A DNA stretch of 64,000 nt from Asterias amurensis. Its lineage: Eukaryota; Echinodermata; Asteroidea; Forcipulatida; Asteriidae. The notes under the pieces are model-generated. The model did not search any database. It saw only the letters and a list, made by a program, of their open reading frames with translations, and was not told where the DNA came from. The position numbers were made by a program, and so were the translations under genes. The stretch covers positions 11,735,391 to 11,799,390 of the forward strand of contig NC_092657.1 in NCBI RefSeq assembly GCF_032118995.1, written 5' to 3'. Positions 3,022 to 33,641 of this stretch are shown piece by piece (position 1 is the first letter of the stretch; each line of letters starts with the position of its first letter).

Positions 3022-4961
3022 AGGAACACGTTGCCTTTGATAGGTCGAGTTGGTCTTTGGAAAGCGTTCGTGACCGTTTGTTATAAAATGCATTGTGTAG
3101 AAAGATGTAAAAGCATAATCAATCATCCACACAAACACGCCTAGTCTTGGTGCAAGACGTTTCTCGTTTCCTTATCACGCACACCGCGGCCAATTCACCG
3201 ACAGCGCGCGCAACGAGTCACCTGACTTATAGTCCACTCACTGCCGCGGAGAAACGCCTTGGTCCGTGTACAGATCGCTCGGGAAATTCCGAGCACATTC
3301 CAATCATGCCGTGCTGCGGTAGGCCTGCATAACTCTGACGTAGCAGTATCAGCATATTTTCCCACAGTCTGGTATCTGTACGTCTTCGATGCAACGCAAC
3401 CAGAAACAGCCAGGCTTCCTCGTATGTTGGTGTGTAGGGCTTGTATATTTACGTTAGTCTTTTAATTTTTGTAAACATGATTGCTACTGAACGATGTGCG
3501 AATTTTAGTTTGCCCTGAAATATGTTTTTTGGGAAGATTTTTAGAATTTTTGTAAATGCAATTAATTGAGGGGAATGGAACCTTAAAATGTTATGAACGA
3601 GGATGTTTATTAGCAACAGAGCTAACAAAAATAGATCAATGTACACGAACATGGGATTTTCTGGCATTTTTAGTCTTAGTCCAAATGGTAACTTTGTAGG
3701 AAAAAAACATTATAGGGTCACAGTGCCTGAAAGTACTTTTTATGCAGAAAAAAACTAAACACTACAACCGAAACTTCCGTATCATACTCACACAGCTTGG
3801 TCAAAATCAACCGGTGGTCGACCACCATTACATGTATATCTAAGCCTGTGAGTAATTTGACACGTCTTCGCGAAGATAAGAAGCCCTGCCACAACACCAC
3901 GTTGGCATTCGGCTGTGTACTGTGTGCATGTGTGCAAGAAGGTACAGCCAGACATATCCATTGCCGACACACTTGGCCACAATTATACGTGGCATGTAAT
4001 GGAGGCTATTTTCGCCCCAAACTGTGCTTTATAGTAAAGTGCCGATAGCCATGCACGCCAGGATATCTTTCCTTATTTTCGAAATAATGTGCAAATATAC
4101 CCATACAAGTTACAAGTTCTCTCATCCGCAAATAAAACACTCGACTCCTCGAGTCTTGCCGATGCGGTCAGCAATATTGTTATTGTATTTTTTCATTGAC
4201 TGACAATTTCTTCCCTCTAACAATCGATCGCAACCGCTGATCTCTAATTAATAATAACATATGAAGATCAGTGATCGCCTAGCTTTGCATGCACAACAAA
4301 ACGCACATGGTGTGTATACCCCCGGGTTCCCGCCATAGCATGATGCAGCGAGGCTTTTACTCGACACGTCGGGTGCATTCTCAAGTTACCAGGCTGGCCC
4401 GCTTGTCTGTTTCCAGTTGTGCGCGTGCGTAGTATTTTGTTGACCCACACGTTGAATATGTATGTGAGGTCACATAACTCAAACATGGACACGGACCAAG
4501 ACGTTTCTCCGGCGGTGAGTTTACTTATTAGTCAGGTGAGTCGTTGCGCGCGCTGTCGGTGAGTTGGCCGCGGTGTGTAAGAAAAGGAAACGAGAAACGT
4601 CTTGCACCAAGACTAAAACATGCCTCGAAATAGCACGGTTTTATTTTTACCTCGTCGACTAACATGGTCGGCAATTTATGGGGGTCAAATGTTTGACTCC
4701 CATAAAATGGCCGACCGTGTTTGCTCGCAAAGTACAATGAAAACCGTGCAATTTCGAGTCAAATTTGTGTTGATCATTGTGTACTACATTTAAAACAACT
4801 TTCTAACCATATTTTTTTTTTATAAGAGATGTTAAATTTGCATCGGGGATAAAGAATAATTATTATTATTATTTTTTTATTATTTTTTATTATTTATAAT
4901 TCATAACAGTTACAAACGCTTTTTATAGACCAACTCGTTCGATCCAAGGCAACGTGTTCCT
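3022..4961. mobile_element. TTAA-type MITE (AGGAACACGTTGCC family)
   Basis: The left end reads AGGAACACGTTGCCTTTGAT and the right end is its near reverse complement, ending GGCAACGTGTTCCT. TTAA flanks both ends (3,018-3,021 and 4,962-4,965). Inside, GGGGTCAAATGTTTGACTCC and its neighbours form a central palindrome. The element is split by the insertion at 3,142-4,615. Relatives lie at 5,128-5,475, 42,520-42,755 and 45,633-46,014. A TTAA target duplication is typical of piggyBac/Kolobok-type transposases. Confidence 0.8.
3142..4615. mobile_element. TIR transposon with 9-bp target duplication, nested
   Basis: Terminal inverted repeats of about 118 bp (3,142-3,260 and 4,498-4,615) begin TAGTCTTGGTGCAAGACGTT. 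The flanks AAACACGCC (3,133-3,141) and AAACATGCC (4,616-4,624) are a 9-bp target duplication with one mismatch. Long TIRs with a 9-bp duplication fit Mutator-like elements. The 1.47-kb length and lack of a long reading frame make it non-autonomous. Confidence 0.75.
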
Positions 4962-11468: not shown

Positions 11469-11507
11469 AGAGCTGGTGGACCATGGAGAGTAGGGAGTTG
11501 AGCAGAG
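11469..11507 (+). CDS. Exon 1 of RHIM/SAM gene: start codon exon
   Basis: TTTCTCAG precedes 11,469 and AG|GTAGGC follows 11,507. ATG at 11,483 lies in a strong context (GACCATGG) and opens MESRELSR plus one base (phase 1). That base joins the TT of the next exon to give Val. It is the only ATG found that feeds the RHIM exons in frame with a good splice acceptor before it. Confidence 0.55.
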
Positions 11508-14500
11508 GTAGGCACTATCTTGTCATGTTGTTATCTATCATTATTGCCAATATTGAAATGAAAAAACAGCGTGGCTTCATTTCAACCCACCTGTAGTTGT
11601 ATCTTCTCATTTAACCTCTACTTGTTCTTGTATTACCTTTTAAAGTCATTCATGGTTTAGCACCAATGTACATTCAAGAACTCATAACCATGAAATCACT
11701 CTGTCGTCTCCGGAGTTCGCACAAGACCACACAATGTTGTTTCAACCATCAAGAAAATCAAGGGCTACCTTAGGTGATCGGGCATTTGTATACAACGGTG
11801 CTCCAAAACTATGTAATAATCTCCCTCCTTGTATTAGACAATCTTTTCAACACTTAAAGGCAGTGGACACTATTGGTAATTACTCAAAATAATTATTAGC
11901 ATAAAGCCTTACTTGGTTACGAGTAATGGGGAGAGGTTGATAGTATAAAACATTATGAGAAATGACTCCCTCTGAAGTGAAGTAGTTTTCGAGAAAGAAG
12001 TAATTTTCCACGAATTTGATCTGAGACTTCAAGTTTAGAATTTGAGGTCTCGAAATCAAGCATCTGAAAGCACGCAACTTCGTGTGGAAAGGGTGTTTTT
12101 TCTTTCATAGTTATTTCGCAACTCCGACGACCAATCGAGTTTAAGTTTTCACAGGTTTGTTATTTTATGCATAATGTTGAGATACACTAAGTAAGAAGAC
12201 TGGATTTTGACAATTACCAATAGTGTCCTGTCTTTAATGTTTTTACATGCAAATGGAAGATAACAACGCATGTGTTTATACTTCACCCATTTCATTCCTT
12301 CATGATCTGTTTGTTTCTTTTGTATTTTTTTCCCGCATTTTTTTGTATTTCTTGTAATGCGCAGTGGAGTATAATAATTACAGATGTTGCGCAATATAAA
12401 TGTCCGTATTCATGTTTTATTCACTGATTCTTTTATACACGAAGTGTACGATGTAGAGCTTTCAGAGGTGTCCATTGGTAAAGTGGCGTCTTCGCTGCCC
12501 CCTTTGGACACGTGGCCTTGCGGGGGCACAGAAAACCCCTTTGAATTGGTTCGGTGCTTTTTGTGTCTTGACTTAATGCTGTATCACCTTTTTCAGTTTG
12601 TCGAGTGCTTTTTATAGACCATGTGAACCTTGTTTACAATAAGTGTGACCTCGTACATTCCTTCAGTATTCTGGCAGGCAATATACTACACTGGTCCTAT
12701 ACGGGAAAGTTGTCATTTTGTGTCATAATTTCCACATAAAACCAAGAGTTATGAAGTAAAAGCTGGTAAAGTTTTCAGATGTGCCCCCTTTAATCATATA
12801 AAAAGTTGATTAGAATTAGACATTGCAATCTCCATAAAATATACGATTTTTTATTTTCTTCCATTGAGCTGTGTACAAATAATGCTTGCAGGAAGTCCAG
12901 GCTCTGTGGGGTTTTTTTTTTTTACCAGCGACGTCACAGGTCACATCGTCTATATTATGTCAATTTCTTGTGAAAAGTGATGTCTTCTTTTTGGTTTAAA
13001 GTCACCTGGAAGTGGTTTTTTTTTTAAATAAAGCTTTTGTCACTAATATATGTGTTTTGATGAGTTGAATGTGAATAAACAGATAACATAAGTAAAAATA
13101 AGTTCTTATGTTATTGACAAATTTAAGAGTAGACCCCGACCCGAGAGGGCGCTGTTCGTGACGTCAATCGAGGCAGTCTTTGCCTGTAATGCGTAGAGCA
13201 AACACAATTGCAAAGTTCATGTACGGACTAAGTCGTGAGTTTGTACGTTTAAAAAAAAACAAATCAGTTTTTTTCCGGCAATGCCGACCAGGTGTATTGC
13301 TGCTGAATGCAGAAAAACACTTTTTTTAAATGTACCAACTCACGACTTGGACGTACATGTACTTTACACGTGTGTGTACTATACGCATTGCAGGCAAAGT
13401 CTGCCGTGAATGACGCCACAAAAGGGGTAGGCGGAGTCAGCCCCCCAAAAACAACTTTATATATTTTTTAAACATATAAATCGTGACAAACAATTACTAA
13501 AAAACATGTTTTATTGTTTGTAAGCATATACTCTTATGTTTGAAAGAAAAAAAATATATATTTCCAGGTGACTTTAAGCACGGGATATGGAATTTCATGT
13601 TTTGATATTATGATGTAGAATAAATGCATTCTTCATCAATGAAATAAATGACGAATATTCACATCCCCAAACCTACCGAGACTCATAAGCCAATTCTTCA
13701 CTCGTAAGTCTTCTGTTTTAAATTGACTTGCTGTTTTATGTGTATTGTATTTAAACAAGTTTTGTTTTTCTTGCAGTTCGAAAGAAGAAGAAAAAGAGAA
13801 GACCCTCTGTACATCATGTTCAGAACGTTGATATATCGAATTGCTCAAACTGTTTCATTCAAGGTCTACATTTCGGTAAGTAAAAACAAAAATGAATTTC
13901 CACCATGAGAAGTTCAAACTAACCACGCTCGTTTTATTTGAATTGTCTGGGTACGTTTTGTAGGACACAGACCACAATGTCCAAAGATTGACATTAAAGG
14001 CAGTAGACACTATGGTAGTTACTCAAAATAATTATCATCAGAAAACCTCGTTATTTTGGTAACGAGTAAAGGGGAGAGGGTGATAGTATAAAACATTGTG
14101 AGAAACGGCTCCCTCTGAAGTGACGTAGTTTTCGAGAAAGAAGTAGTTTTCCACGAATTTGATTTCGAGACCTCAAGTTTAGAATTTGAGGTCTGTAAAT
14201 CAAGCATCTGAAAGCACACAACTTTGTGTGTCAGGGCGGTTTTTGTTTCATAGTTGTCTTGCAACTCCGACGACCAATCGAGCTCAAATTTTCACAGGTT
14301 TGTTGTTTTATGCATATCTTGAGATACACCAAGTGAGAAGACTGGTCTTTGACATTACCAATATTGTTCACTGTCCAGTGTTTTTAAATTTACACAGTTT
14401 GAAGGTAATGATGGTAGAATCTTCCTTTAAAATGTGACCTCCAGAAGTGCGGTAATTTTTGAGAAATGAGTAAAACAAGTCGCGAAAAACCATTTTCGTC

Positions 14501-15247
14501 TCGGGAGGAGAAAACTATTAATTTGAACATAGTAAACGTATTTTCGTGACATTGATTTATTCATTTCTCGGTAGAAACTAGAGCACCTCAGCAAGTATTT
14601 AATGTAAACTTTATATTACCATTATCTTCAAACGGTGTAAGTTTAAAGGCAGTGGATACTATTGGTAATTACTCAAAATAGTTATTAGCATAAAACCTTT
14701 CTTGGTGACGAGTAATGGGGAGAGGTTGGTAGTATAAACCATTGTGAGAAACAGCTCCCTCTGATATGGCATAGATTTCGAGAAAGAAGTAATTTTCCAC
14801 GAATTTGATTTCGAGACCTCAGATTTAGAACTTGAGGTCTCAAAATCAACCATCTAAACGCACACAACTTCGCCTGACAAGGTTTTTTTTTTCGTTAATT
14901 ATTATCTCACAAGTTCGATGACCGATTGAGCTCAAATTTCCACAGGTTTATTATTTTATGCTTATGTTGAGATACACCAACTGTGAAGGCTAGTCTTTGA
15001 CAGTTACCAATAGTGTCCACTGCCTTTAATGTAAAAATGTTGAGTTTATAATTACATTGTACTGATTGTTTTTGATTTTGTAGCTATTCATAAATTATTA
15101 TTTCTCAATATATTTTCAATTGCAGTGAAAAAGAAAAAGGAGGGAACAATAAAGATCCGTGTCGATAATTTAAATGTTTTTAACTCTCCGGGAAGTATCA
15201 TTCAATTTGGTCAGTTTTGCAACAATATGGTCATGTTCGGTGGTAAG

Positions 15248-15284
<37 letters not shown>

Positions 15285-18200
15285 GAGGATGAGGATGAGG
15301 ATGAGGATGAGGATGAGGATGAGGATGAGGATGAGGATGAGGATGAGGATGAGGATGAGGATGAGGATGAGGATGAGGATGAGGATGAGGATGAGGATGA
15401 GGATGAGGATGAGGATGAGGATGAGGATGAGGATGAGGATGAGGATGAGGATGAGGATGAGGATGAGGATGAGGATGAGGATGAGGATGAGGATGAGGAT
15501 GAGGATGAGGATGAGGATGAGGATGAGGATGAGGATGAGGATGAGGATGAGGATGAGGATGAGGATGAGGATGAGGATGAGGATGAGGATGAGGATGAGG
15601 ATGAGGATGAGGATGAGGATGAGGATGAGGATGAGGATGAGGATGAGGATGAGGATGAGGATGAGGATGAGGATGAGGATGAGGATGAGGATGAGGATGA
15701 GGATGAGGATGAGGATGAGGATGAGGATGAGGATGAGGATGAGGATGAGGATGAGGATGAGGATGAGGATGAGGATGAGGATGAGGATGAGGATGAGGAT
15801 GAGGATGAGGATGAGGATGAGGATGAGGATGAGGATGAGGATGAGGATGAGGATGAGGATGAGGATGAGGATGAGGATGAGGATGAGGATGAGGATGAGG
15901 ATGAGGATGAGGATGAGGATGAGGATGAGGATGAGGATGAGGATGAGGATGAGGATGAGGATGATATATATATATATATATATCGCTTTTCACACCCGGA
16001 GGGCGTCCCCTGGTCACTGGGCCTTAATTCACTCCTTAAACCATCTCAGCTCCCTGGCGGAGAGTATGCAGCCTTCGCTAAATCAACCACAAGAACCATC
16101 TCTGCCCTCACAGGTGCCCATTTACCCCTGGTTGGAGAGAAGCAATTGTAGTTAAGTGTCTTGCCAGGGACACAAGCGTGTCACGACCGTGAAATTTATA
16201 AATAAATACCAGCCTTAAATAGATCTATGTATGTTTGGTAAAGACTAGGTAAGAAAAACAGCAGCTTTGGCCAGTGTAATTAATTTTAAAAAGGGATGCT
16301 GCAGTGAATAAAAAAAAAAAAAAAAAAACATTTTGCTGTTATTTTTTTCTGATATATGTATTGAACATCAATAAAATGTGTTTTGTTTATTCTCGACATA
16401 TGTGACTTGTGTAATAAGCGAATAAGTCATGCCCCCACCCCTTTTTGTGGATTGTGACCGCCACTACCATCGACGTCAGTCGGGAATTCAAACATATCGT
16501 CGGCAAATAGAGTCTGGTCCAAAACTACACGCGCCTAGGTACCAGGCCACACAGTGCACACGTCTCTATATGCACACAGCCAGGGGGGCCCGACGGCTCT
16601 GGTTACCGACATGACGTCACGTTTATGCAAATGAAGGCTCCCTTTTAGGGGCGGGGTGGGTTCCCCTAATCTCTTGAAAACCATTTTAAAAATACTTGCG
16701 CATTTAATGAAAAATAAAAACAATATTTCAGGTTTAAAAAGTCATGTTTAATCGTTTTAATGAAAAAAGAAAGAAAAAAAAAACACTGCAGCCACCCTTT
16801 AAGAAACATTTCACTTCGAAATACTTCAATTATGGAAGAATTTATCACTTTTTTGTTACGCTGTCACAGTTTCTTCTATTGTTTTGATAAATTAGGTAAA
16901 TTTAAAGTCACCTGGAAATAGGATTTGTTTTTCTTTCAAACATAAGAGTATATGCTAACGAACAATAAAACATTTTTTTAGTAATTGTTTGTCACGATTT
17001 ATATGTTTAAAAAATATATAAAGTTGTTTGGGGCTGACTCCGCCTACCCCTCTTGTGACGTGCAAAGTACATCTACGTCCAAGTCGTGAGTTGGTACATT
17101 TCAAAAAGTGTTTTTCTGCATTCAGCAGCAATACACCTGGTCGGCATTGCCGGAAAAAAAATTCAACGTACAAACATTACAGGCAAAGTCTGCCTCGATT
17201 GACGTCATGAACAGCGCCCTCTCGGGTTCTACTCATAATTTGTAAATAACATAAGAACTGATTTTTTAAAACCTTAGTTAACTGTTTATTCACATTCCAC
17301 TCATCAAAACACATAGTGACAAAAGCTTTATTTTGAAAAAAAAACCACTTCCAGGTGACTTTAACTTTATAATTTCTTTGGGGTTTTTAAAAGGTTGTTA
17401 GTGTTATTTTTGTTGTTATCTTTCTTTCTTCTTCAGGTGCTGATTCATTTGCTAATAACAATATGCATACAGGTAAGTTACTTAAAGCCATTACACACTT
17501 TCGGAACAGAAAAAAAAGATTCACATATAAAAAACAAATTCAAGGGTTTGCAGAAGGTAATGGTGAAATACTTCTCTTGAAATATTATTCCATGAAATGC
17601 TTTCCTTTTTGAGAAAACATTAAAACATCATCAATTCTCGATAGCGACAATTACGGAAGTATTTTGAACATATGTCATGACACGAAGAAACGTGCGGAAA
17701 CAAGGGTGGGTTTTCCCGTTATTTTCTCCCTACTCCGATGACCGATTGAGCCTAAATTTTCACAGGTTTGTTACTTTATACAGATGTTATGATACACGAA
17801 GTGATGGCCTTGGACAATACTGTTTGCCGAAAGTGTCCAATGGCTTTAATAACGCTACCACTATAGTTTGAGTTAAATAATGTTCATTATTCGCTTGCTA
17901 ACAAAACATTTTATTTGGTTGACCAAGAGTTGAATTTGTGTCTTGGCTGAAGATGACAATTATTGAGGGAAAAATCGTTTATTTCTTTCCTTTTCCTTCT
18001 TATAATACTAATTTAAATGTAAATTGCACGACGAAACCACCATGTTGTGTGGTTAGTTCAAAGGCTCTGGACACATGTCAAAGACCAGTCTTCTCACCTG
18101 GGCCCAATTTCATAGAGCTGCTTAACGGTAAGCAATTTATTTTTTGCTTAATGTAGCAACAATAATTGCTTAAACCATTCTACCCCCATGCTAAACTTAC

Positions 18201-21200
18201 ACCTATTTCACGAGCTTTTAAGCTCTGTTTGCTTAACGTAGCAAACAAACTTGCTTAGCGTAAACCTATTTCACGAGCGGTTGCTAGCTTAAGCACGTAA
18301 ACTAACTGCGCGCGCAACATTTTACGAGTAAAAAGAAGAAGGTGTTGACAAAATGGCGAGCGAAATAAATGCGGAGTGGCGATAAAAAAGTCATCACTTT
18401 CTGTGCCTGATAGTATTAATGGTAACGGTTCAAATTGCCCCTCGAAAGATTTACAAACTTGAAAGTAGACAAGAAGATAATGCATTGTACAACATTTCTG
18501 AAGCATGTTATGTTACTCTCACACTAGAGAGAATATGCTAGCGAATGTGCTTACGAACGGAAATATTTAACAATCGCTCAAACATCGCAACATTCGCCAC
18601 AAATTCACTACGTTAACAAGTCGATCTCCACCTCCTTACGAAGATCGGTCAATAAATGCTGCTCTCACTCGGCGAATATGCTAGCAAATATTCTATCGGA
18701 AGGAAATAATTGACAATCGCTTTAACTTCGCAACATTCGCCGTGTCTTCGTAAGCGTTGTTAACAAATTCGGAACGTTCACAAACTAATCCCCACCTCCT
18801 TACGAAGATCGCTCAATTTACAAACCGGTTTGTAAATTTCAGCGAATGTTGCGAGGACGGTCATTCGGCGTTATTTTCGTAAGCTTTTAATAACGTTGGT
18901 AAAGCGTGCGTCGTTTGTAACGTTCGTAAAGGCATTGGCAAGCGTTGGTAAGCATTCGTAACATATCTGTAAGATATTGGTAAGGAGATGGCCGACCGAG
19001 GACGATCGAGGGGTGAGACCGAGATGAAAATATTCACTCTCCAACCGCCATTTTGGACGAGTTCAACGCGAAATATTCATGTTCACAAATAAATTCACCA
19101 CTCTGTGAGAGCAGCAATACGAAGCGCTTCCGTACATTCAGCGAACGTTGTGAAGACGGTAATTCGCCATCGATTTTCGTAAGCATTTGGTAAGCCATTG
19201 GTACTGTTGGTAAAGCGTGCGTATTATGCGTAAGATATGGGTTGTTCTAAAACCCCCTCGACCCCCACGACCCACGACCCCCTCGACTTTTGTGCATTTT
19301 TTCCCCTTTAAACCGAAATTGGCACTGTTCACAATCTCAGCCAATCACGCACACAATTTTGTATGCTGACGTCGACTATGCTTCATTTACCATGCATCCG
19401 CACATTACACAGCGTACGAGACACACCATACACACGTGGTAAAGCACGAAGCAAACTGCGCGTGATTGGCTGAGATCGGGACCTGTGGCAATTTTAAAAA
19501 ACGCGCAATTACCATGCGCATCTCTTGGCCGACCCGAGCCTGAATAAAGATTATATCCAAGCTGGGAACCTGCGTTTACCGCCTGAGTACGATTGCGGGC
19601 TCCAGTCATGTGTACTACTTGCTCTATGCGTAGCTCGAGGTTGGAGATCAGACCGATCAAATGGCCCATGTTGTCTCCCACACCCCCCCCCCCCCCGGCC
19701 ACACAGGGCCTACTGCTCGTACCGCCTGCTGTACGGCCAACGAGGGCAAGATCAGTGTGCACGTGACGTGCGGAAGCGGAGAAAATACTCAAATTTTATG
19801 CCAAGTGGCCTCATTTTGTCCTGGGGAAAATATGCAGGCAAAGAATATTACATTGGAAGGAAGTTGCGTCGCCTGTTATTTAGATCACACACTGTGAGTT
19901 CTAAATCGGGACTCGTGAATTCTACTTAGGCCGTTTATGAATTCCTTGTTGGGACCCGCTTCGAATACGGGGCAGACGAAGAAGGGTCGTGGGTCGTGGG
20001 TCGAGGGGGTCGAGGGGGTTTTAGAACAACCCGTAAGATATTGGTAAGGAGAGCTTTAAGGACGACATAGAACATAATATTATTATAAATAAAATCGCAC
20101 CTTTTCGGCGAATTCGTCGCGAATTTTAAACATTCATATTCGCAAGATATTCGCCCAAGTGTGAGAGTAGCATAAGCAAAACAGAGGCTTTAAGGACCCT
20201 TTTTGTTTGCTCGCCGCTGTAAGCAAAAAACATTGCTTCACCAAGGCTATGAAATGAAGAAATTTCTAGGTGCGCCCGTTAAGCACAAAATCGACCGTTA
20301 AGCAGCTCTTTGAAATTGGGCCCCTGTGTATCTCAACAAATGCATACACTAACAAACCTATGAAAATTTGAACTCAATTAGTCGTCGAAGTGGCGAGAGA
20401 ATAATGGAAGAAAAACACCATTGTCGCACAAGTTTTCAGATGCCTTAAATTCTAGACCTAGCTGAGGTCTCGAATTCAATTCAATTATTTTGTGAGAAAT
20501 TACTTCTTTCTCAAAAACTACGTTACTTCAGAGGGAGCCGTTTCCTACAATGTTTTATACTATCAACCGCTCTCCATAGCTCTTTACCAAGTCATTTTTT
20601 TTATAGTAAATGCTAACAATTATTTTAAGTAGTTGCCATCAGTGTACATAAAACAGTTCAATGTGTGTATTGATTGAATGTGACTGTATTTGTGATTTTA
20701 TTTATTTTCTATCAATACCCTTCAGATGCTGATAACCTTCCGATGTCGAATCATACAGGTAACTTATATTATTTGCTCATCAAATTAATACAGTATGGGT
20801 TACATTAAGCTACGCCCCATTGGTATGTATATTATATAAATAATGTTTCAGACAAAAAGTTACGTGATATTAAAGTGCCGATGCTTTGTTTGTCTCTATA
20901 ATTTCAGGACGATTTATTGATTCTTATAAGAGTCAACGTTTGACACAATGATGTTGAATGTAAAGTTCTATTCGACACCCAACTTATACATGAAGTTATT
21001 ATTTTGTGCTTGTTTTACAGTCAAGTCGTCACTTATGTCAAGCTGGAGTAGAGACCAAGTTCGATGCTGGATCATGAATATCAATCTACCAAGTTATGTT
21101 GCAAATCAGTTTTATCAAGAACATGTCAACGGTTTTATTTTACAGAAGTACAAGAAAAAGTGTTTGAAAAAAGATTTCCTGTTGTACAAGTCAAATTGGC

Positions 21201-21808
21201 GTCTTATTTTATATCTGAGAAAAAGTTGGTTGAAAATGGAAAAAGATGTTCGAGAAACTATTGGTTCGTCTGGTTCAAGAAATTTATCATTGCCTTCATC
21301 TGTTACGTATGACATGGTTAAAGCTAAAGAAAATATTCAAGACATAGTATTGCATTTAAATTCAAAGTTGAGGTCATTTCAAGATTCATTTACGGAATTT
21401 AATATTTCAGACTTAAACTATTTGCATCGCGGTGATTTACATGTTACGTCAGAAAGCTTAGAATCTTCTTTCGTTGAAATATTGAACACAGGAAAAAACA
21501 ACTTAATAGTCGGCTTTATGAATGTAACACAAGGTACTTTATGTGACAACTTTATTGAACAATTTAGTGAAATATTAGGAAAAATCAAAGATACTGGTCT
21601 AACGAGTTTTATACTTGGAGAATTCAATTTGCATAACAGCTCGAGAAAGTTGCTTCTTTATGAGAAAAATATCATAGGTGCTCTGACAGATAATTTATTC
21701 TTCCGACTCAGAACTGAAAGCGCGTTTACAAGAAATTCAGTTATATTTGATGAAGTTATAACAAACAACATGGGTGTGTTTAGTTCTGATGACGGAATAC
21801 AACATTAA
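11483..21808 (+). CDS. RHIM-like x2 / SAM / degenerate EEP protein (six-exon gene model, copy B)
   Basis: Not a known named gene. Coding exons are 11,483-11,507, 13,777-13,875, 15,126-15,242, 17,437-17,472, 20,726-20,758 and 21,021-21,808, spliced to about 365 residues. Every junction is phase 1 and the frame stays open throughout, which is the main support. Residues 10-17 and 43-47 are lysine/arginine-rich. Residues 23-41 and 54-72 are two homologous RHIM-like motifs, the second containing IQFGQFCNNM. Residues 112-172 look like a SAM domain. Residues about 250-365 match the C-terminal half of a CR1/L2 LINE endonuclease but carry GEFN instead of GDFN and stop before the SDH motif. RHIM motifs are known to build signalling amyloids (RIPK1/RIPK3, Imd) and SAM domains to oligomerise; an innate-immune or cell-death adaptor is therefore inferred. 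No signal peptide or membrane segment is evident from the N-terminus. Confidence 0.6.
11620..11853 (+). pseudogene. 3' end of a CR1/L2-like LINE ORF2
   Basis: Broken translation across frames gives FKVIHGLAPMYIQELI, then a GDRAF-like segment and APKL(W/C)NNLP, then IRQSFQ. These are the usual last motifs of CR1/L2 reverse-transcriptase proteins. It is frameshifted and lies in intron 1, directly 5' of a MITE. Confidence 0.65.
11858..12233. mobile_element. MITE, AGGCAGTGGACACTATTGG family
   Basis: TTAA at 11,854-11,857 and 12,234-12,237 flanks ends reading AGGCAGTGGACACTATTGG and CCAATAGTGTCCTGTCT. The interior is a long hairpin with GAGACTTCAAG/TTTGAGGTCTCG. It lies in intron 1. The remainder of the intron, 12,240-12,995, shows no gene. 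Confidence 0.85.
13000..13573. mobile_element. MITE, AGTCACCTGGAA family (inverted copy)
   Basis: TTAA (12,996-12,999 and 13,574-13,577) flanks AGTCACCTGGAAGTGG on the left and TTTCCAGGTGACT on the right. Inside are CCCGAGAGGGCGCTGTTCGT and a repeated GACGTCAATCGAGGCAG word. Copies at 16,906-17,359 and 26,828-27,329 lie in the opposite orientation and sit at the left edge of the B/C duplication. Confidence 0.85.
13777..13875 (+). CDS. Exon 2: basic stretch plus RHIM-like repeat 1
   Basis: Acceptor TTTTTCTTGCAG and donor TTCG|GTAAGTAA bound 99 nt (2+96+1). It encodes RKKKKKRRPSVHHVQNV followed by DISNCSNCFIQGLHF. The 19 residues from VQNVDISN to HF align without gaps to 19 residues of exon 3 (V, N, N, I-Q and F conserved in place). 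The core Gly is shifted (IQGL versus IQFG), so this copy is a degenerate RHIM-like motif. Confidence 0.6.
13996..14642. mobile_element. Two adjacent MITEs in intron 2
   Basis: 13,996-14,380 is a diverged AGGCAGTGGACACTATTGG element whose right end reads ACATTACCAATATTGTTCAC. 14,385-14,642 is a member of the family with the GAAGGTAATGATGGTAGAA word and a central GTCTCGGGAGGAGA hairpin. Confidence 0.75.
14647..15025. mobile_element. MITE, AGGCAGTGGACACTATTGG family
   Basis: TTAA flanks at 14,643-14,646 and 15,026-15,029, with intact inverted ends AGGCAGTGGATACTATTGG and CCAATAGTGTCCACTGCCT. It lies in intron 2, 100 bp before exon 3. Confidence 0.9.
15126..15242 (+). CDS. Exon 3: RHIM-like repeat 2
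   Basis: Acceptor TTTTCAATTGCAG and donor GGTG|GTAAGTAA bound 117 nt (2+114+1). It encodes KKKKEGTIKIRVDNLNV then FNSPGSIIQFGQFCNNMVMF and a Gly. FNSPG-IIQFG parallels the (Y)NSTG-IQIG core of RIPK1-type RHIMs; the following N and M are one position later than in the consensus (I/V)Q(I/V)GxxNxM. The hexanucleotide array begins about 11 bp after the donor. Confidence 0.65.
15253..15983. repeat. (GATGAG)n hexanucleotide array in intron 3
   Basis: A short (AAT)/(AATGAT) lead-in is followed by an essentially perfect (GATGAG)n tract from about 15,282 to 15,962, then (TA)n to 15,983. Because the hexamer and its complement lack stops, several frames stay open for over 260 codons. These are not genes. 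Confidence 0.97.
15990..16190 (-). mobile_element. SINE body fragment
   Basis: It shares CCCTGGTCACTGGGCCTTAA, CATCTCAGCTCCCT and GAGAGAAGCAATT with the SINE at 1,350-1,815. The tRNA-like head is missing. Between 16,200 and 16,900 only a poly-A run (16,309-16,328) and unassigned sequence are seen. Confidence 0.7.
16906..17359. mobile_element. MITE, AGTCACCTGGAA family, left edge of duplication B
   Basis: TTAA at 16,902-16,905 and 17,360-17,363 flanks the element. Similarity between copy B and copy C starts at its left end. Upstream of it the two copies are unrelated. Confidence 0.85.
17437..17472 (+). CDS. Exon 4 (36-nt mini-exon), copy B
   Basis: Acceptor TTTCTTTCTTCTTCAG and donor ACAG|GTAAGTTA bound 36 nt in phase 1-1. 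It encodes G-ADSFANNNMHT. Being symmetrical, it can be skipped without changing frame. The copy C counterpart (27,403-27,438) differs at three of its residues, with no silent change. Confidence 0.55.
17483..17855. mobile_element. Diverged MITE following mini-exon
   Basis: The ends TTAAAGCCATTACACACTTTC and GAAAGTGTCCAATGGCTTTA are inverted. The interior has TTTTCACAGGTTTGTTACTT, as in the AGGCAGTGG family. The same insertion is at 27,449-27,831 in copy C, so it predates the duplication. Confidence 0.7.
18100..20323. mobile_element. 2.2-kb TIR transposon (GGGCCCAATTTCATAG ends), intron 4
   Basis: The ends GGGCCCAATTTCATAGAGC and GCTCTTTGAAATTGGGCCC are inverted and interrupt an older MITE whose halves are 18,059-18,099 and 20,324-20,650. 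Sub-terminal GCTTAA/TTAAGC words and many TCGTAAGC-type words fill the interior. No transposase frame is seen. The same insertion is present at 27,969-30,186 in copy C. Confidence 0.75.
19239..20032. mobile_element. 794-bp TIR element with perfect 9-bp target duplication, nested
   Basis: The left end GGGTTGTTCTAAAACCCCC and the right end GGGGGTTTTAGAACAACCC are inverted, followed by CGACCC/GGGTCG sub-repeats. GTAAGATAT at 19,230-19,238 and 20,033-20,041 is a perfect 9-bp duplication, again Mutator-like. It lies inside the 18,100-20,323 element, itself inside a MITE: three nesting levels. Confidence 0.85.
20726..20758 (+). CDS. Exon 5 (33-nt mini-exon), copy B
   Basis: Acceptor ATCAATACCCTTCAG and donor ACAG|GTAACTTA bound 33 nt in phase 1-1, encoding D-ADNLPMSNHT. 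It resembles exon 4 (AD then N-rich then HT), so the two mini-exons may be an old duplication. It is identical in copy C. Confidence 0.55.
20908..20951 (+). CDS. Possible alternative terminal exon (short isoform)
   Basis: A good acceptor, TCTCTATAATTTCAG, precedes 20,908. In phase 1 the exon reads G-RFIDSYKSQRLTQ then TGA at 20,949-20,951. Using it after exon 5 would give a protein of about 117 residues with both RHIM-like repeats and no SAM or EEP part. The same arrangement exists in copy C (30,703-30,746) with one residue changed. There is no transcript evidence. Confidence 0.3.
21021..21808 (+). CDS. Terminal exon, copy B: SAM-like domain plus degenerate LINE endonuclease domain
   Basis: The acceptor is TGTGCTTGTTTTACAG; phase 1 gives V-KSSLMSSW. 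The exon encodes 261 full codons and a stop. The SAM-like region (21,044-21,226) shows WSRDQVRCWI, a central LPSYVANQF and VNGFILQK, the usual helix-1 to helix-3 pattern. From about 21,458, ESSFVEIL, NNLIVGFMN, DNFIEQFSEILGKI, FILGEFNLH and VIFDEVITNN follow in the order found in CR1/L2 EEP domains. Glu replaces the catalytic Asp of GDFN (residue 304), and the frame ends at DDGIQH where LINEs have GISDH. A nuclease activity is therefore unlikely. An in-frame ATG at 20,948 upstream could give a SAM/EEP-only product. Confidence 0.65.
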
Positions 21809-22890
21809 AAACGAAAATAAACATTGCGAAGACGTGTGCGTTGTGATAATAGACTGGTAAGGGAAGTGTGCGTTGTAATAATCGATTGGAAAGCAAAGTC
21901 TATCGATTGAAAGCTACAAAAGCCAATACCTTTGGCTGTGATTTAAACAACTTTCACAGTAGCAAGGTTGACTCAGCCTTACATCCTTTCGGGGTAGTTA
22001 AAATGAGTACCATTCCAATTTTGGAGTGGGAAATAAAAATAATGCCGGTTTGGAAAGTTGAACTAACATTGCTCCTGTTATTCTGACGGAATACAACATT
22101 AAAAAACGAAAATAAACATTGCGAAGACGTGTGCGTTGTGATAATAGACTGGAAAGGGAAGTGTGCGTTGTAATAATCGATTGGAAAGCAAAGTCTATCG
22201 ATTGAAAGCTACAAAAGCCAATACCTTTGGCTGTGATTTAAAAAACTTTCACAGTAGCAAGGTTGACTCAGCCTTACATCCTTTCGGGGTAGTTAAAATG
22301 AGTACCATTCCAATTTTGGAGTGGGAAATAAAAATAATGCCTGTTTGAGAAGTTGAACTAACATTGCTCCTGTTATTCTGACGGAATACAACATTAAAAA
22401 CGAAAATAAACATTGCGAAGACGTGTGCGTTGTGATAATAGACTGGAATAGGAAGTGTGCGTTGTAATAATCGATTGGAAAGCAAAGTCTATCGATTGAA
22501 AGCTACAAAAGCCAGTACTTTTGGCTGTGATTTTAACAACTTTTACCGTAGCAAGGTTGACTCAGCCTTACATCCCTCCGGGGTAGTTAAAATGAGTACC
22601 ATTCCAAATTTGGAGTGGGAAATAAATTTTAAAAAGATAACAGTACAGTTTGTCGATAAGATTGTTTTAGAGAAGCATAAACATTGAGCCATATACATAC
22701 ATTGTGAGAACGTTAAACCGAAGTCTATACCGATTCAAAGCTATACGAAGTCTACACCAATTATTCAAAGCTACGAAAGTCAATACCTTTGGCTGTGATT
22801 TTAAAAACTTTTACCGTAGCAAGGTTGACTCAGCCTTACATCCTTTCGGGGTAGTTAAAATGAGTACCATTCCAATTTTGGAGTGGGAAA
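21791..22890 (+). repeat. Tandem ~295-bp repeat starting at the stop codon
   Basis: GACGGAATACAACATTAAAA recurs at 21,791, 22,085 and 22,380 (periods 294 and 295). A fourth, diverged unit spans about 22,690-22,890. The first 15 bases of unit 1 are the last codons of the SAM/EEP reading frame. Units share CCTTTGGCTGTGATTTAAA and GGTTGACTCAGCCTTACATC. Copy C keeps one unit; a fragment is found at 437-462 in copy A. Confidence 0.9.
21816..21821 (+). promoter_or_regulatory. Polyadenylation signal AATAAA, copy B
   Basis: AATAAA starts 8 nt after the stop codon of the terminal exon. It is conserved in copy C at 31,614-31,619 and reiterated in each ~295-bp unit downstream. Confidence 0.5.
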
Positions 22891-22904
22891 GGGAACACAA
22901 AGAG

Positions 22905-23240
22905 AACTTGTTTGGAGTTGAACTATGATATTGTTACGCCTGTATTGGAGATGAATTATGCTATTGTGCCTGGTTTGTACTTGAACTATACTATTATGCC
23001 TTGTTTGTACTTGAACTATACTATTATGCCTGGTTTGTACTTGAACTATATGTTACGCCTGTTTCGGAATGTTGAACTATACTATTATGCCTGGTTGGAA
23101 CGTTGAGCTATACTACAATTATGCATGTTTTGGAAAATGTAACTATTATATTATGTCTCTTTCGAAAGGAGAACTACAATGCCTATTTTGAAAGTTGAAC
23201 TAATATGCCTGTTTTGAAAGTTGAACTAATTATGCCTCTT
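22905..23240 (+). repeat. Degenerate TTGAACTATACTATTATGCC minisatellite
   Basis: About ten 25-30 bp units, each TTGAAC-TATACTATTATGCCTG with variable tails. It grades into the flank at 23,240. It is equivalent to the array at 1-610. Confidence 0.85.
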
Positions 23241-24955
23241 TGGAAAACTCTCGAAAAGCTGAACTGTGTATCTTTTTAAACAACTTGAAATTTTATGCTT
23301 CTTTATACAAATCTTTCTTTCATGTGGAAAAACTGAACAATCATGTCTATTTTGAAAAAACCAAAACATCACTCCTATTATTCTTGGGGAAAATGTGTCA
23401 TTTTTTTTGCATTTTTAAAAAGAGAATCTTTGAATGTCCTTTTATAGAAGTCATTAATCAATAAACATATAATTATTTGAAAGACAAGAATTTGGTTTGC
23501 GGTTTCATTTCATTTACATCTGAATCAATATGGACACTTCGTTTTTGGTTCCTGTTTTGTCCTTTCGTGACCACCTCTATTTACAAACAAAAATTAACAG
23601 GAAAAAAAAGCTCAAGTGTCAATAAAACATTTACTTTTACTATAAAAACTAATGTGAGACTCCTATTAAAGAGTCTGGGTAATTTTTGTAACACAAAACA
23701 CAATTTCCACAGAATTACATAAAACTTACATAGTATGAAGATAATGATGGTAGAAAGCTTCCCTTAAATTATAACTTGCTGATGTGATGTAGTTTTTGAG
23801 AAAAAGAAAATTGTTCAAAAATGTCCCGAAAATAAGCTTCGTCAAAGTTTTAGCATGTAAACACGTAATTGTTATGGTATTTTACCATAACCGAGTTATA
23901 CGTTTTTACATGCAAATTAATTTTCTTCTCACTGAGAGTGAGACGAAAATGGTTTTTGTGACTTGTTTTAGTACTTATTTCTCAAGAAATACACAGCACC
24001 TCAGCAACAAATACATTTTAAAGAAAAAAGCTTTCTACTATCATTATCTTCAAACCTGAGTAAGTGTAATGTAAATCCGGGACATATATTGTTTTGGGTT
24101 ACAAAAAGTGTCCAAATCATTTAAACCGTGTAAGTTTAATTTAAAAATGTGGATGTTGTGTTTTGTGCCATACAAACAGTCATTTTCGTGTGCTTTTGAA
24201 TATTAGGCACAAGCATTGTGCACTGTAACTTTTGGGGATGTTCACTGGGTTGCACCCGTAAGCTCTTCGACAAAGAGTGAGAAAGCGCCCTCTTGCGGAT
24301 TAATCATCAACAAAAGTAGCCTGAATATTAGACTGGTTCCGCGTCCTTATACGCAAGGTGTTGGCTTTAGTATACACATGTGCGTCGGGTTTAAATGAAA
24401 ATTTCCAGAACGATGAAGGCCATGTGAAATGTTTCTAGGTTAAAGCTGATTATCTACGTGTGTTTTAACAGCAGATCTATGGCGTATTTCACAAGCCTTT
24501 CGATGTTCAGATGTTCAGGCTACCTCTGAACATTGAAAGGCTCACTTCGAGAAACGCGAATAACTCCAGGGGTCTATTTCATAGAGCTGCTTAAGCGAAA
24601 AATAGCTTGCTTATTTTACACATGTTACTGGCCAAAATGTCATACCATATACATTGCTTGTGACTGATATTTAGCTGTTGTTTACTAAATGGAGTCAGCC
24701 GGTTATCTGATTTTACTGAGCAAAGGTTTATTTTGCTTAAAGGCAGTCGGCACTATTTGAGCCAAGGCATCGGCTTGCGCGCCTAGCAGGATCCTGTCAG
24801 ATGAACTCTTGACCGCATGTCCCATTCACACTTTTAGTACATACATAAGCCTGCATTGTAAATTTGTAAAAACATTATATACAAACATTATGGACAGGCA
24901 GCAGGCGATCGAAAGTTAGCTGATTAACATCAACTCAGACCAATCAACACCATGG
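23241..24955 (+). other. 3' flank of duplicated unit, copy B
   Basis: No gene is seen. The sequence is collinear with 611-3,017 plus 4,966-4,990. It includes a hairpin MITE at 23,655-24,145 (TTATGGTATTTTACCATAAC core) and, at 24,568-24,740, a fragment of the CATAGAGCTGCTTAAGC element seen complete at 18,100-20,323. Confidence 0.7.
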
Positions 24956-24974
24956 AAATCTCATGTTGCCACTT

Positions 24975-25680
24975 AAAGACATTGGACACTATTGGTAATT
25001 GTCAGACCAGTCTTCTCACTTGGTGTATCTCAACACATGCATAACATAACAAACCTGTGAAAATTTGAGCTCGATTGGTTTTCGGAGAGTTGCGAGATAA
25101 CTATGAAAGAGAACAAACACCCTTGCCACACGAAGTTGTGTGCTTTCAGATGCTTGATTTCGAAACCTCAAATTCTAAACTTGAGGTCTCGAAATCAAAT
25201 TCGTGGAAAATTACTTCTTTCTCGAAAACTACGTCACTTCAGAGGGAGCCGTTTCTCAAAATGTTTTATACCAATCAACACCATGGAAATCTCATGTTGT
25301 CACTTAAAGACATTGGACACTATTGGTAATTGTCAAAGACCAGTCTTCTCACTTGGTGTATCTCAACACATGTATAACATAACAAGCCTGTAAAATTTGA
25401 GCTCAATCGGTCATCGAACTTGCGAGATAATAATGAAAGAAAAAAACACACGAAGTTATGTGCGTTTAGATGGTTGATTTCGAGACATTAAGTTCTAAAT
25501 CTGAGGTCTCGAAATCAAATTCGTGGACAATTACTTCTTTCTCGAAAACTATGGCACTTCAGAGGGTGCCGTTTCTCAAAATGTTTTATACCATCAACCT
25601 CTCCCCATTACTCATTACCAAGTAAGGTTTTATGCTAATAATTATTTTGAGTAATTACCAATAGTGTCCACTGCCTTTAA
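24975..25680. mobile_element. Two MITE copies in tandem, AGGCAGTGGACACTATTGG family
   Basis: 24,975-25,270 is truncated at its right end. 25,303-25,676 runs to CCAATAGTGTCCACTGCCT followed by TTAA. Both copies begin with AGACATTGGACACTATTGG after CACTTA and are preceded by the same CACCATGGAAATCTCATGTT sequence, so they arose by tandem duplication of a MITE plus flank. Confidence 0.8.
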
Positions 25681-25689
25681 TTATAGGTA

Positions 25690-26165
25690 GATTTGTTGGT
25701 ACACTTGCAAACAACTTATTCTGCCAGTGTAGGGAATTGGATACCATGAGTGGTTTGATTTTCCTCTTGCTTGAGATGTTTCTTGATGTTTCAGCGGGTT
25801 TTGTTTAGTGTGAATGGTCTTTACCGAAGGGTCTGGTACCAGCCGGTAGAGCATTAAATGTTAATACCAATAGTTATAATGATATCTGGGTTACCCCCCC
25901 CCCCCCTCAAAAAAAAAAAAAAAAAAAAAAAAGAAAAAAATCTCTAGATATATTAAAAAAATGTTGGCACCATGGCTTATTTAAGCCTCTGTACCTTTTT
26001 TTAAAGAATGCTCAGCTAAATGTTCAGTCACATGATTAGATTACCGTGAGTTGTGAATTGAAAAAGTGATTCAAACAAGGTCTTACCAAAATTGACAAAT
26101 AAATGACTCAGTCTATCAGGGATTGTAGGCAAACTGAACAATTGGCATATTTCCACATATGATGT
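25690..26165. other. Gene-free stretch
   Basis: A run of C followed by a long A-rich tract lies at 25,893-25,939. No domain, splice pair or repeat family is recognised. Confidence 0.6.
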
Positions 26166-26826
26166 TGGTGTATTTGGCTGACCAGCCAGAATGATACGAA
26201 CAACCCTTTTTGGTAACCTTTCAAGGGTTATGAGTTGTGTTTTAGTAAATCCAGAGTACCAGCCAGGACAGGCGTATTCGATAGTGGGTCGGACATATAC
26301 AACATATACAGTAAACAGATCCTTAACAGAAATAAATAACCGTTTAAGCTGGCGTAAAACAACAGTCTACGGTTAAAATTACCACACATGTTGTTAACTT
26401 GGGAATCCCACTTGAAATTATTTCAAACAATCAGTTTGATTCATTTGAGAATCTAAAATGTCGAAGGTGGGCGGATCAAGTTGGGTATGTTGAAAACTGT
26501 TATTCATGTACAGGCATTTGGCGGGATTAAGTTTCATTTTATTCAGATCAGTCCATTGATTTAGGTCATTAAGCACATTTTGCATGTTGGAGCTCTCGTT
26601 AGGATTAGAGAGGGTCTGACTTAAAGTCAGATCATCGACATATATTTGTAATGTTCGACTGCTGGAAGATCAGGAACAAAATAATTGATCATTACTAAAA
26701 AGGCAATGGGCCCAGTTTTTGTCCCTTGGGGAACTCCAGCATGCAATCTCTCCCGAGCAGAAATATCACCCTTATATCTAACAGCCTGAAGACGATCTGA
26801 TAAAAATCCACATAGCCAAGGAGTAA
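26166..26826 (-). pseudogene. Non-LTR retrotransposon reverse transcriptase fragment
   Basis: Minus-strand translation, with one frameshift near 26,640, gives CGFLSDRLQAV, then GVPQGTKTGPIAFL (an RT motif), then YVDDLTLSQTL (catalytic YxDD), LNDLNQWTDLNKMKLNP and, further on, VRPTIEYACPGWYSG. These are RT motifs 4-6 and thumb of a Jockey/CR1-like LINE. It ends exactly where the AGTCACCTGG MITE begins, at the left edge of copy C. Confidence 0.8.
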
Positions 26827-26827
26827 A

Positions 26828-27329
26828 AGTCACCTGGAAATATTTTTTTCTTTCAAACATAAGAGTATATGCTTACGAACAACAAAACAATTTTTTTAGT
26901 GTTTGTTTATCACGATTTATATGTTAAAAAAATATATAAAGTTGTTTGGGGGCTGACTCCGCCTATCCCTTTTGTGACGTCAATCGAGGCAGACTTTGCC
27001 TGCAATGCGTATAGTAAACACATGTACGTCCAAGTCGTGAGTTGGTACATTTCAAAAAGTGTTTTTTCTGCATTCAGCAGCAATACACCAGGTCGGCATT
27101 GCCGGAAAAAAAATAAAAATTGAAACGTACAAACATTACAGGCAAAGTCTGCCTCGATTGACGTCACGAACAGCGCCCTCTCGGGTCGGGGTCTACTCTT
27201 AATTTGTAAATAACATAAGAACTGATTTTTTAAAACCTTAGTTAACTGTTTATTCACATTCCACTCATCAAAACACATATATTAGTGACAAAAGCTTTAT
27301 TTTGAAAAAACACCACTTCCAGGTGACTT
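26828..27329. mobile_element. MITE, AGTCACCTGGAA family, left edge of duplication C
   Basis: The right end is followed by TTAA (27,330-27,333). The left flank is GTAA rather than TTAA and abuts the LINE fragment, so the original left flank was lost. It is the orthologue of 16,906-17,359 within the duplicated block. Confidence 0.85.
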
Positions 27330-27402
27330 TAAGTCTATAATTTGTTTTTGGTTTTAAAAGGTTATTAGTGTTATTTTGTTGTTATCTTTCTTTCTCCTTC
27401 AG

Positions 27403-30400
27403 GTGCTAGATCATTTGCTGATAACAATATGCCTACAGGTAAGTTACTTAAAGCCATTTTACTTACACTTTCGGAACATAAAAAAAAAGGTTCACATATA
27501 AAAAAAAAAAAAAAAAATTCAAGGGTTTGCAGAAGGTAATGGTGAAAGACTTCTCTTGAAATATTATTCCATGAATTGCTTTCCATTTTGAGAAAACATT
27601 AAAACATCATCAATTCTCGACAGCGAGAATTACGGAAGTATTTTGAACATAACTATTTCATGACACGAAGAAACGTGCGGAAACAAGGGTGGGTTTTCCC
27701 GTTATTTTCTCCCTACTCCGATGACCGATTGAGCCTAAATTTTCACAGATTTGTTATTTTATACAGATGTTATGATACACGAAGTGAGGGCATTGGACAA
27801 TACTGTTTGCCGAAAGTGTCCAATGGCTTTAACGCTACCACTATCGTTTATTTCTTTCTTTTTACTTCTAATAATACTAATTTAAATGTAAATTGCACGA
27901 CGAAACCACCATGTTGTTGGGTTAGTTCAAAGGCTCTGGACACATGTCAAAGACCAGTCTTCTCACCTGGGCCCAATTTCATAGAGCTGCTTAACGGTAA
28001 GCAATTTATTTTTTGCTTAATGTAGCAACAATAATTGCTTAAACCATTCTACCTCCATGCTAAACGTACACATATTTCACGAGCTTTTAAGCTCTGTTTG
28101 CTTAACGTATCAAACAAACTTGCTTAGCGTAAACCTATTTCACGAGCGGTTGCTAGCTTAAGCACGTAAACTAACTGCGCGCGCGCAACATTTTACGAGT
28201 AAAAAGAAGAAGGTGTTGACAAAATGGCGAGCGAAATAAATGCGGAGTGGCGATAAAAAAGTCATCACTTTCTGTGCCTGATAGTATTATTTGTAATGGT
28301 TCAATTTGCCCCTCGAAAGATTACCTAACTTGAAAGTAGACAAGAAGATAATGCATTGTACAACATTTCTGAAGCATTTTATGCTCTTCTCACACTAGAG
28401 AGAATAATGCTAGCGAATGTGCTTACGAACGGATATATTTAACAATCGCTCAAACATCGCAACATTCACCACAAATTCACTACGTTGACAAGTCATTCTC
28501 CACCTCCTTACGAAGATCGGTCAATAAATGCTGCTCTCACACGGCGAATATGCTAGCGAATATTCTATCGGAAGGAAATATTTGGCAATCGCTTTAACTT
28601 CGCAACATTCGCCGTGTCTTCGTAAGCGTTGTTAACAAATTCGACACGTTCACAAACTGATCCCCACCTCCTTACAAAGATTTACAATTTACAAACAGGT
28701 TTGTAAATTTCAGCGAATGTTGCGAAGATGGTCATTCGGCGTGATTTTCGTAAGCTTTTGGTAACGTTGGTAAAGCGTGCGTCGTTTGTAACGTTCGTAA
28801 ATGCATTGGCAAGCGTTGGTAAGCATTCGTAACATATTTGTGAGAAATTGGTAAGGAGATGGCCGACCGAGGACGATCGAGGGGTGAGACCGAGATGAAA
28901 ATATTCACTCTCCAACCGCCATTTTGGACGAGTTCAACGCGAAATATTCATGTTCACAAAAACATTCACCACTCTGTGAGAGCAGCAATACGAAGCGCTT
29001 CCGTACATTCAGCGAACGTTGTGAAGACGGTAATTCGCCATCGATTTACGTAAGCATTTGGTAAGCCATTGGTACTGTTGGTAAAGCGTGCGTATTATGC
29101 GTAAGATATGGGTTGTTCTAAAACCCCCTCGACCCCCACGACCCACGACCCCCTCGACTTTTGTGCATTTTTTTTTCCTGTACACCGAAATTGCCACTGT
29201 TCACAATCTCAGCCAATCACGCACACAATTTTGTATGCTTACGTCGACTATACTTCATTTACCATGCATCCGCACATCACACAGCGTACGAGACACACCA
29301 TACACACGTGGTAAAGCACGAAGCAAACTGCGCGTGATTGGCTGAGATCGGGACCTGTGGCAATTTAAAAAAACGCGCAATTACCATGCGCATCTCTTGG
29401 CCGACCCCGAGCCTGAATAAAGAATATATCCTAACTGTGAACCTGCGTTTACCGCCCGAGTACGATTGCGGGCTCCAGTCATGTGTACTACTTGCTCTAT
29501 GCGTAGCTCGAGGTTGGAGACCAGACCGACCAAATGGCCCATGTTGTCTCCCACACACCCCTCGCCACACAGGGCCTACTGCTCGTACCGCCTGCTGTAC
29601 GGCCAATGAGGGCAAGATCAGTGTGCACGTGACGTGCGGAAGCGGAGAAAATACTCAAATTTTATGCCAAGTGGCCTCATTTTGTTCTGGGGAAAATATG
29701 CAGGCACAGAATTTTACACTGGAAGGAAGTTGCGTCGCCTGTTATTTAGATCACACACTGTGAGTTCTAAATCGGGACTCGTGAATTTTACTTCGAAGGC
29801 CGTTTATGAATTCCTAGTTGGGACCCGCTTCGAATACGGGGCAGACGAAGAAGGGTCGTAGGTCGTGGGTCGAGGGGGGTCGAGGGGGTTTTAGAACAAC
29901 CCATAAGATATTGGTAGGGAGAAGTTTAAGGACGACATAGAAAATAATATTATTATAAATAAAATCGCACCTTTTCGGCGAATTCGTCGCGAATTTAAAA
30001 CATTCATATTCGCAAGATGTGAGAGTAGCTGCATAAGCAAAACAGAGGCTTTAAGGACCCTTTTTGTTTGCTTACCGCTTTAAGCAAAAAACATTGCTTA
30101 AGCAAGGCTATGAAATGAAAAAAATTGATAGGTGCGCCCGTTAAGCACAAAATTGACCGTTAAGCAGCTGTATGAAATTGGGTCCCGGTGTATCTCAACA
30201 AATGCATACAATAACAAACCTATGAAAATTTGAACTGAATTAGTCGTCGAAGTGGCGAGAGAATAATGGAAGAAAAACACCATTGTCGCACAAATTTTCA
30301 GATGCCTTAAATTCTAGACCTCGGCTGAGGTCTCGAATTCAATTTAATTATTTTGTGAGAAATTACTTCTTTCTCAAAAACTACGTTACTTCATAGTACA

Positions 30401-31882: not shown

Positions 31883-33641
<1,759 letters not shown>

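Follow-up and report, generated by a model that had tools for sequence, protein, structure and literature searches.

Exapted retrotransposon fragments are a known kind of sequence, and RHIM kinases, RIPK1 and RIPK3, are known from vertebrates. VQFG, tested in human RIPK3, is a natural RIPK3 tetrad; NF-kB activity was retained by most of the tested RIPK3 variants and ZBP1-dependent killing by all of them, according to PMC12119088, in which RHIM-bearing RIPK1 is also given as not found in echinoderms. Ambulacraria RIPK1 is likewise reported without RHIM (PMC11507063). Here we describe a gene of the starfish Asterias amurensis that an earlier note, made from the DNA letters alone, had read as a union of RHIM-like motifs, a SAM domain and a dead endonuclease of a long interspersed nuclear element (LINE). 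It lies in a stretch of 64,000 nucleotides (the window), C10:11,735,391-11,799,390 of a 491.5-Mb assembly from which contigs C2, C14 and C17 also come. We propose, at a probability of roughly 0.45, that it is a host gene in which the C-terminal half of a LINE endonuclease was fused to a SAM exon, and that it encodes a small intracellular adaptor.

The gene that the note had outlined, six exons joined in phase 1 into about 365 residues, agrees with the splice borders, the reading frame and a full-length counterpart in Asterias rubens. All exons have AG acceptors and GT donors, and the spliced product runs from an ATG (in GGACCATGG) through 364 further codons to a stop, giving 365 residues. Among the closest known proteins is A. 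rubens LOC117299140 (P0001; 363 amino acids, beginning MENRELSRV), which is alike over its whole length. Because its alignment covers 99% of the product, with 88% identity, the gene model is beyond chance, and the locus is a real protein-coding starfish gene. Exon 6 has six family loci in the genome: copy 0, immediately upstream of the window; the window gene itself, called copy 1; copy 2 at 30.8 kb of the window; two on C10 at 12.49 and 12.73 Mb; and one on C14. Each of the six exon types is found in copy 0, where exons 4 and 5 are doubled and the acceptor that precedes exon 1 is kept. The protein encoded by copy 0 shares 93.1% identity with P0001 (338/363), so that copy 0, rather than the window copy, is likely the direct counterpart of LOC117299140. 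That protein is annotated as uncharacterized, without function, and no literature was found under its locus name, in keeping with the note's description of the gene as undescribed. The parts of the window gene are as follows.

11469-11507, plus strand: exon 1, end of the 5' untranslated region and start codon (ATG at 11483), encoding MESRELSR; the start is matched in A. rubens P0001 and copy 0
13777-13875, plus strand: exon 2, a basic stretch and the first short beta-type repeat (VDISNCSNCFIQGLHF); copy 0 is 88% identical
15126-15242, plus strand: exon 3, the second repeat, RHIM-like by eye (VFNSPGSIIQFGQFCNNMVMFG)
17437-17472, plus strand: exon 4, a short linker exon (GADSFANNNMHT), two in copy 0
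20726-20758, plus strand: exon 5, a short linker exon (DADNLPMSNHT), two in copy 0
21021-21260, plus strand: exon 6, first part, a SAM-like domain (Pfam SAM_2/SAM_1 below cut-off)
21261-21421, plus strand: exon 6, middle, a linker predicted to be helical and alignable with the linker of a SAM gene on C17
21422-21808, plus strand: exon 6, last part, a catalytically incomplete C-terminal LINE endonuclease half, and the stop codon

The last 129 or so residues of the product match open reading frame 2 (ORF2) frames of LINEs in the same genome. When the genome was searched with exon 6, the family loci accounted for 8 of the 45 matches; the other 37 were confined to residues from 123 on, the best (E value 7.4e-12) being a frame of 982 codons. 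The first 259 residues of this frame match Pfam Exo_endo_phos (E 5.2e-10). It is the one of the 37 that was read for reverse transcriptase, and it carries motifs of that enzyme such as FADD and is adjoined by an ORF1-like frame. A profile of the starfish family matched 10 of 10 fetched LINE loci (E 1.8e-19 to 1.3e-7; best domain 3.2e-19); these loci had been chosen because they already matched, and the E values refer to that small frame set. The two best profile alignments begin at LINE residue 111-112 and end at the ITND segment. Pfam Exo_endo_phos_2 weakly matched the half in relative P0004 (0.0025) and the majority sequence (0.007), and no Pfam endonuclease match was returned for the other three family sequences given. 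The likeness to LINE ORF2 endonucleases of the EEP (endonuclease/exonuclease/phosphatase) fold, for example that of locus L012, thus covers about 120 collinear residues, whereas the first half of the enzyme, the SDH end and the reverse transcriptase are absent from the starfish gene. In addition, the GDFN motif, intact in P0004, is altered to GEFN in the window copy, while P0003, P0005 and P0006 have GKFN, GDFY and GDFH, respectively. We take the absent and changed residues to be those needed for cutting. The reading of this part as a dead LINE endonuclease domain is strongly supported by the ORF2 matches, the profile and the missing portions.

We then compared copies by pairwise counts of synonymous and non-synonymous sites (pN/pS) with Fisher tests, the p values being uncorrected for multiple testing. 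Between copy 0 and the C14 locus, pN/pS was 0.40 over the whole of exon 6 (p 1.3e-6), 0.33 in the endonuclease half (p 1.1e-4), 0.44 in the SAM part (p 0.036) and 0.48 in the linker (p 0.015). Copy 1 against C14 gave 0.45 for exon 6 (p 3.8e-5), with 0.40 for SAM (p 0.019), 0.58 for the linker (p 0.11) and 0.42 for the endonuclease half (p 0.002). Between copies 0 and 1, values were 0.34 for exon 6 (p 0.022), 0.09 for the linker (p 0.033), 0.19 for exon 3 (p 0.005) and 0.62 for exon 2 (p 0.62); the SAM part (p 0.28) and the endonuclease part (p 0.26) taken alone were non-significant. The purifying selection on the endonuclease half between copy 0 and C14 marks this half as domesticated, not debris.

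The first part of exon 6 appears to be a SAM domain, as supported by several weak but consistent matches, all sub-threshold. It has five predicted helices, and the best Pfam SAM_2/SAM_1 score was 17.7 bits against curated cut-offs of 20.5 and 23. Ten of 12 PDB sequence matches of the region are to what we take to be SAM proteins, and all seven Foldseek matches are SAM (7/7, every E above 5). The SAM-like domain of the earlier note is therefore supported by the agreement among Pfam, PDB and Foldseek, not by any match over the Pfam cut-off. A match to nitrile hydratase over the same region (best E 0.0016 versus 0.0038 for SAM) was below cut-off and was rejected, without a test of its own, with PDB and Foldseek favouring SAM. 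SARM1/TIR-1, liprin, polyhomeotic and SAMD9 share with the product the weak SAM matches and the five predicted helices, under the same Pfam limit.

Within the genome, the nearest SAM relatives are a three-gene SAM family (on C17, on C2 and at 20.85 Mb of C10), with leucine-rich repeats in one of the three, and SAMD9 homologues. A search with P0005 found two giant frames on C14 and an exon on C17, all via their SAM regions, and the reverse search from the C17 exon returned copy 0 at E 1.9e-4 and copy 1 at E 5.8e-4. The family on C17, C2 and C10 resembles the window gene in SAM plus linker (E 1.9e-4) and in a short VxIG-type segment upstream of SAM, and the C17 gene also in its phase-1 exons; it differs in having a further domain after SAM and no endonuclease half. 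The C10 relative runs on into leucine-rich repeats (LRR_1 E 1e-13). In L034 (C17:4902000-4908000, positions 1829-4471) and its relatives L046 and L047 a VIIGDSN/VLIGDS segment is followed by a SAM exon and a conserved domain, with leucine-rich repeats in L047. The domain after SAM in these three gave no Pfam match over cut-off; we take it to be TRADD-N-like, a reading to which Pfam gave no support. The C17 gene was rejected as the source of the exon 3 motif: exon 3 gave a z of 0.3 against C17 exon 1 and of -0.2 and -0.5 against the two exons related to it, and the VIIG segment that follows the C17 SAM aligns with the linker of the window gene. The same segment scored a z of 4.8, unexplained, against the P0003 repeat. 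A TRIM-type frame (L035, 2879-4660; RING and B-box by eye) lies a short way downstream of the SAM gene on C17.

Likeness to starfish SAMD9 lies in SAM only: the SAMD9 modules AlbA, Sir2-like, P-loop NTPase, TPR and OB were absent among the product's Pfam matches. Of the C14 frames, the one tested, in L033 (C14:15917500-15927400, frame from 5278), proved to be a homologue of SAMD9 (PDB E 4.7e-91). A SAM-like region stands N-terminally in the same frame, in contrast to the restriction of SAM to vertebrate SAMD9 members given in PMC5445408. L032, on the other strand, resembles the L033 homologue by eye.

A protein search of 5.8 billion sequences gave seven relatives (P0001-P0007) at E <= 10 among 1,003 candidates, and a profile search with the 8-sequence alignment recovered the same seven and no others. 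No long relatives were found by a joined query among the 7,991 candidates listed and scored. Over exon 6 the A. amurensis protein P0003 and the C14 locus show 100% identity, and P0002, from the same species, equals the joined exons 5' and 6' of copy 2 letter for letter; both identities place the window in A. amurensis. P0005 and P0006 each contain, in this order, an N-terminal motif, SAM and the endonuclease half. The best matches of P0005 in the A. amurensis genome are 67 and 68% identical, so that this protein either belongs to a different species or is absent from the assembly. Since the gene in the window spans 10.3 kb, we infer that the contigs of P0005 and P0006, of 2,770 and 1,699 bases, are transcripts. 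Copy 2 is the product of a direct duplication in which the stretch at 17.07-22.07 kb was copied to 27.02-31.86 kb:

17069-31864, plus strand: direct-repeat pair with units 17069-22066 and 27020-31864, duplicating exons 4-6
27403-27438, plus strand: copy 2 exon 4'
30521-30553, plus strand: copy 2 exon 5'
30816-31606, plus strand: copy 2 exon 6', which joined with exon 5' is P0002

Neither the exon 2 peptide nor the exon 3 peptide recurs within the window, copy 2 showing exons 4-6 only. Over the genome, a search with the exon 3 peptide, which misses the diverged C14 repeat, recovered no locus besides copies 0 and 1. Exon 6 of copies 1 and 2 differs by 14 non-synonymous changes and 1 synonymous change (pN/pS 3.48, p 0.33); no constraint is visible between them, and neutrality and diversification are indistinguishable.

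We next considered the N-terminal repeats, which look like beta-arch units. The full-length predicted fold of the product was too poor for a fold search. Could the repeats, instead of being amyloid, stack as rungs in a small fold of beta-arch or beta-helix type that is soluble, as in XRP2/TBCC? P0005 scored z values of 5.9 and 7.1 against XRP2 rungs, the latter with a score of 46 and no gaps; exon 2 gave 3.0 and 5.5, and the second repeat of P0003 gave 0.6 and 5.1. Both repeats contain short predicted strands, and hhalign assigned XRP2 a probability of 77%, from tiny profiles and a target profile of two rows only. The same comparisons were low for exon 3 (0.6 and 1.9), the first repeat of P0003 (1.0 and 2.4) and P0006 (0.3 and 3.6), and the predicted local distance difference test (pLDDT) values of the strands are near 30. 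Pfam TBCC matched neither the product nor the family, and a multi-rung helix was not found: there are two rungs only, presumably far too few for a TBCC-type domain. We regard this explanation as somewhat unlikely.

RHIM is one possible reading of the same units, in which they would be true signalling amyloids that recruit RHIM partners in cell-death signalling. The RHIM-like string pointed out by eye in the second repeat, FNSPGSIIQFGQFCNNM, is indeed present, in exon 3; membership of the RHIM family did not stand. The curated RHIM profile (Pfam PF12721, cut-off 20 bits) recognised the human RIPK1 and RIPK3 control segments at 23.7 and 35.9 bits (E 3.3e-5 and 4.7e-9) while matching none of 3 family segments, of 5 segments and 5 proteins, or of the 8 alignment members, and RHIM by Pfam profile was rejected on that ground. 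Run over the genome exon by exon, in a scan by which an intron-split motif would be missed, it gave six sub-threshold places and none over cut-off, with none in the window gene and hence no partner found; 14 control genomes also gave none over cut-off.

Exon 3 with four exon 4 residues did align to the human RIPK1 RHIM with a score of 38 (z 5.1, A. rubens z 6.0), reached by 0/1000 shuffles and by none of 3,750 background windows (best 34); p was 0.041 against a second RIPK1 segment and 0.048 against RIPK3. Without the exon 4 residues the score fell to 30 (z 3.4; 7/1000 shuffles and 8/3,286 background windows as high), with 31 for A. rubens and 27 for copy 0. Much of the score of 38 therefore lay outside the motif, and the modest likeness of exon 3 alone lowers the odds of a RHIM. 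The alignment is gapped, by two residues before IQ and again after G, and hhalign gave RHIM 21%. Exon 2 was unlike RIPK1 (p 0.95 and 0.82) and RIPK3 (p 0.13), A. rubens exon 3 had a p of 0.40 against RIPK3, and P0003, P0005 and P0006 gave p of 0.05-0.49 against the two RIPK1 segments and 0.12, 0.043 and 0.19 against RIPK3.

Where RHIM has the core tetrad V/I-Q-V/I-G, the window copy, copy 0 and A. rubens read IQFG, P0003 and P0005 read VQIG, and P0006 reads IHVG; in the window copy N-S-x-G stands ahead of the tetrad, as in RIPK1/RIPK3; the pattern [IV]Q[IVF]G occurs three times in the 49,825 six-frame residues of the window. IQFG is compatible with RHIM because VQFG is a natural RIPK3 tetrad, according to PMC12119088. 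The conservation of exon 3 from copy 0 to copy 1 also speaks for this reading. The repeats differ from those of RIPK1/RIPK3 in being unseen by the RHIM model, in their spacing and in that no kinase or partner was found, and Ambulacraria RIPK1 is reported in PMC11507063 to be without the motif. A true RHIM amyloid is thus quite unlikely here, and the suggested connection with amyloid-type cell-death signalling may hold but is unproven. Other candidates were set aside: matches of P0003 and of N-terminal segments to an APOBEC/SNAD-type deaminase (best E 0.0021) were below cut-offs and taken as chance, and for the repeat block a PDB profile match to Tako8 scored on tiny repeated pieces and one to CXCL12 covered one short stretch only.

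In the gene proposed at the outset, the C-terminal half of a LINE endonuclease would have been joined, in one exon, to a SAM exon related to the SAM family and SAMD9, with two short basic-plus-beta repeats contributed by upstream exons. We infer that the product would be a small intracellular adaptor whose SAM would mediate self- or hetero-association, whose N-terminal repeats may offer another surface for assembly, of beta-arch type, and whose dead endonuclease half may serve as a binding module for nucleic acid or protein. It could act beside SAM-LRR (leucine-rich repeat) or SAMD9-type defence proteins. An oligomerising adaptor in intracellular defence is a fair hypothesis. An immune or cell-death role is a hypothesis to which the SAM relatives, the LRR-bearing family and SAMD9, would also point.

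Might the dead half instead be a LINE antagonist that poisons or captures the element's machinery? It is under selection, and many long LINE-type endonuclease frames exist in the same genome; exon 6, however, reaches no more than 37% identity with them, and 31% with the frame that scores best, and the proposed role would not require the N-terminal repeats. We consider it improbable. Only a slim chance is given to an amyloid-seeding adaptor family of the starfish's own, in which RHIM-like repeats and SAM, split from SAM-LRR receptors, would be combined with the LINE half as sensor or scaffold; if true, such a family would fill the place of vertebrate RHIM kinases. That the locus is decaying retrotransposon-derived sequence of little function is very improbable: the copies at 12.49 and 12.73 Mb are broken by frameshifts and the changes between copies 1 and 2 are mostly non-synonymous, but copies 0 and 1 and exon 6 of C14 are open, constrained reading frames and A. 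rubens keeps its counterpart of copy 0.

Several repeats, and frames of mobile-element type, lie in and around the gene. Besides the features below, a dispersed repeat of about 385 bp, starting near AAAGGCAGTGGACACTATTGG, occurs in introns and flanks.

11854-12237, 13993-14375, 14643-15029, 24973-25680, 59306-59692 and others, both orientations: the repeat of about 385 bp
15282-15964, intron 3: GATGAG hexamer array, 114 perfect copies, open in several frames
21790-22626: 2.8 copies of a 295-bp unit, spanning the end of exon 6, with the last codons in the first unit
26028-26872, minus strand: broken LINE-type reverse-transcriptase frames (GVPQGTKTGP) beside copy 2, by eye
31884-33502, just after copy 2: GATGAG hexamer array, about 270 copies, open in several frames
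37265-38921, minus strand: frames resembling the gag zinc knuckle, the protease and the beginning of the reverse transcriptase of a gypsy-type element, by eye

An architecture of SAM with a captured LINE endonuclease half was not found in the literature searched, as judged from listings; exapted fragments are already known, and it is their combination with SAM that is new. The starfish host would have captured a fragment of a LINE endonuclease, which selection kept after the cutting parts were lost and to which SAM was fused. If the assembly role holds, the gene would offer a way to test how death or defence complexes are built in echinoderms, whose RIPK1 is reportedly without RHIM (PMC11507063).

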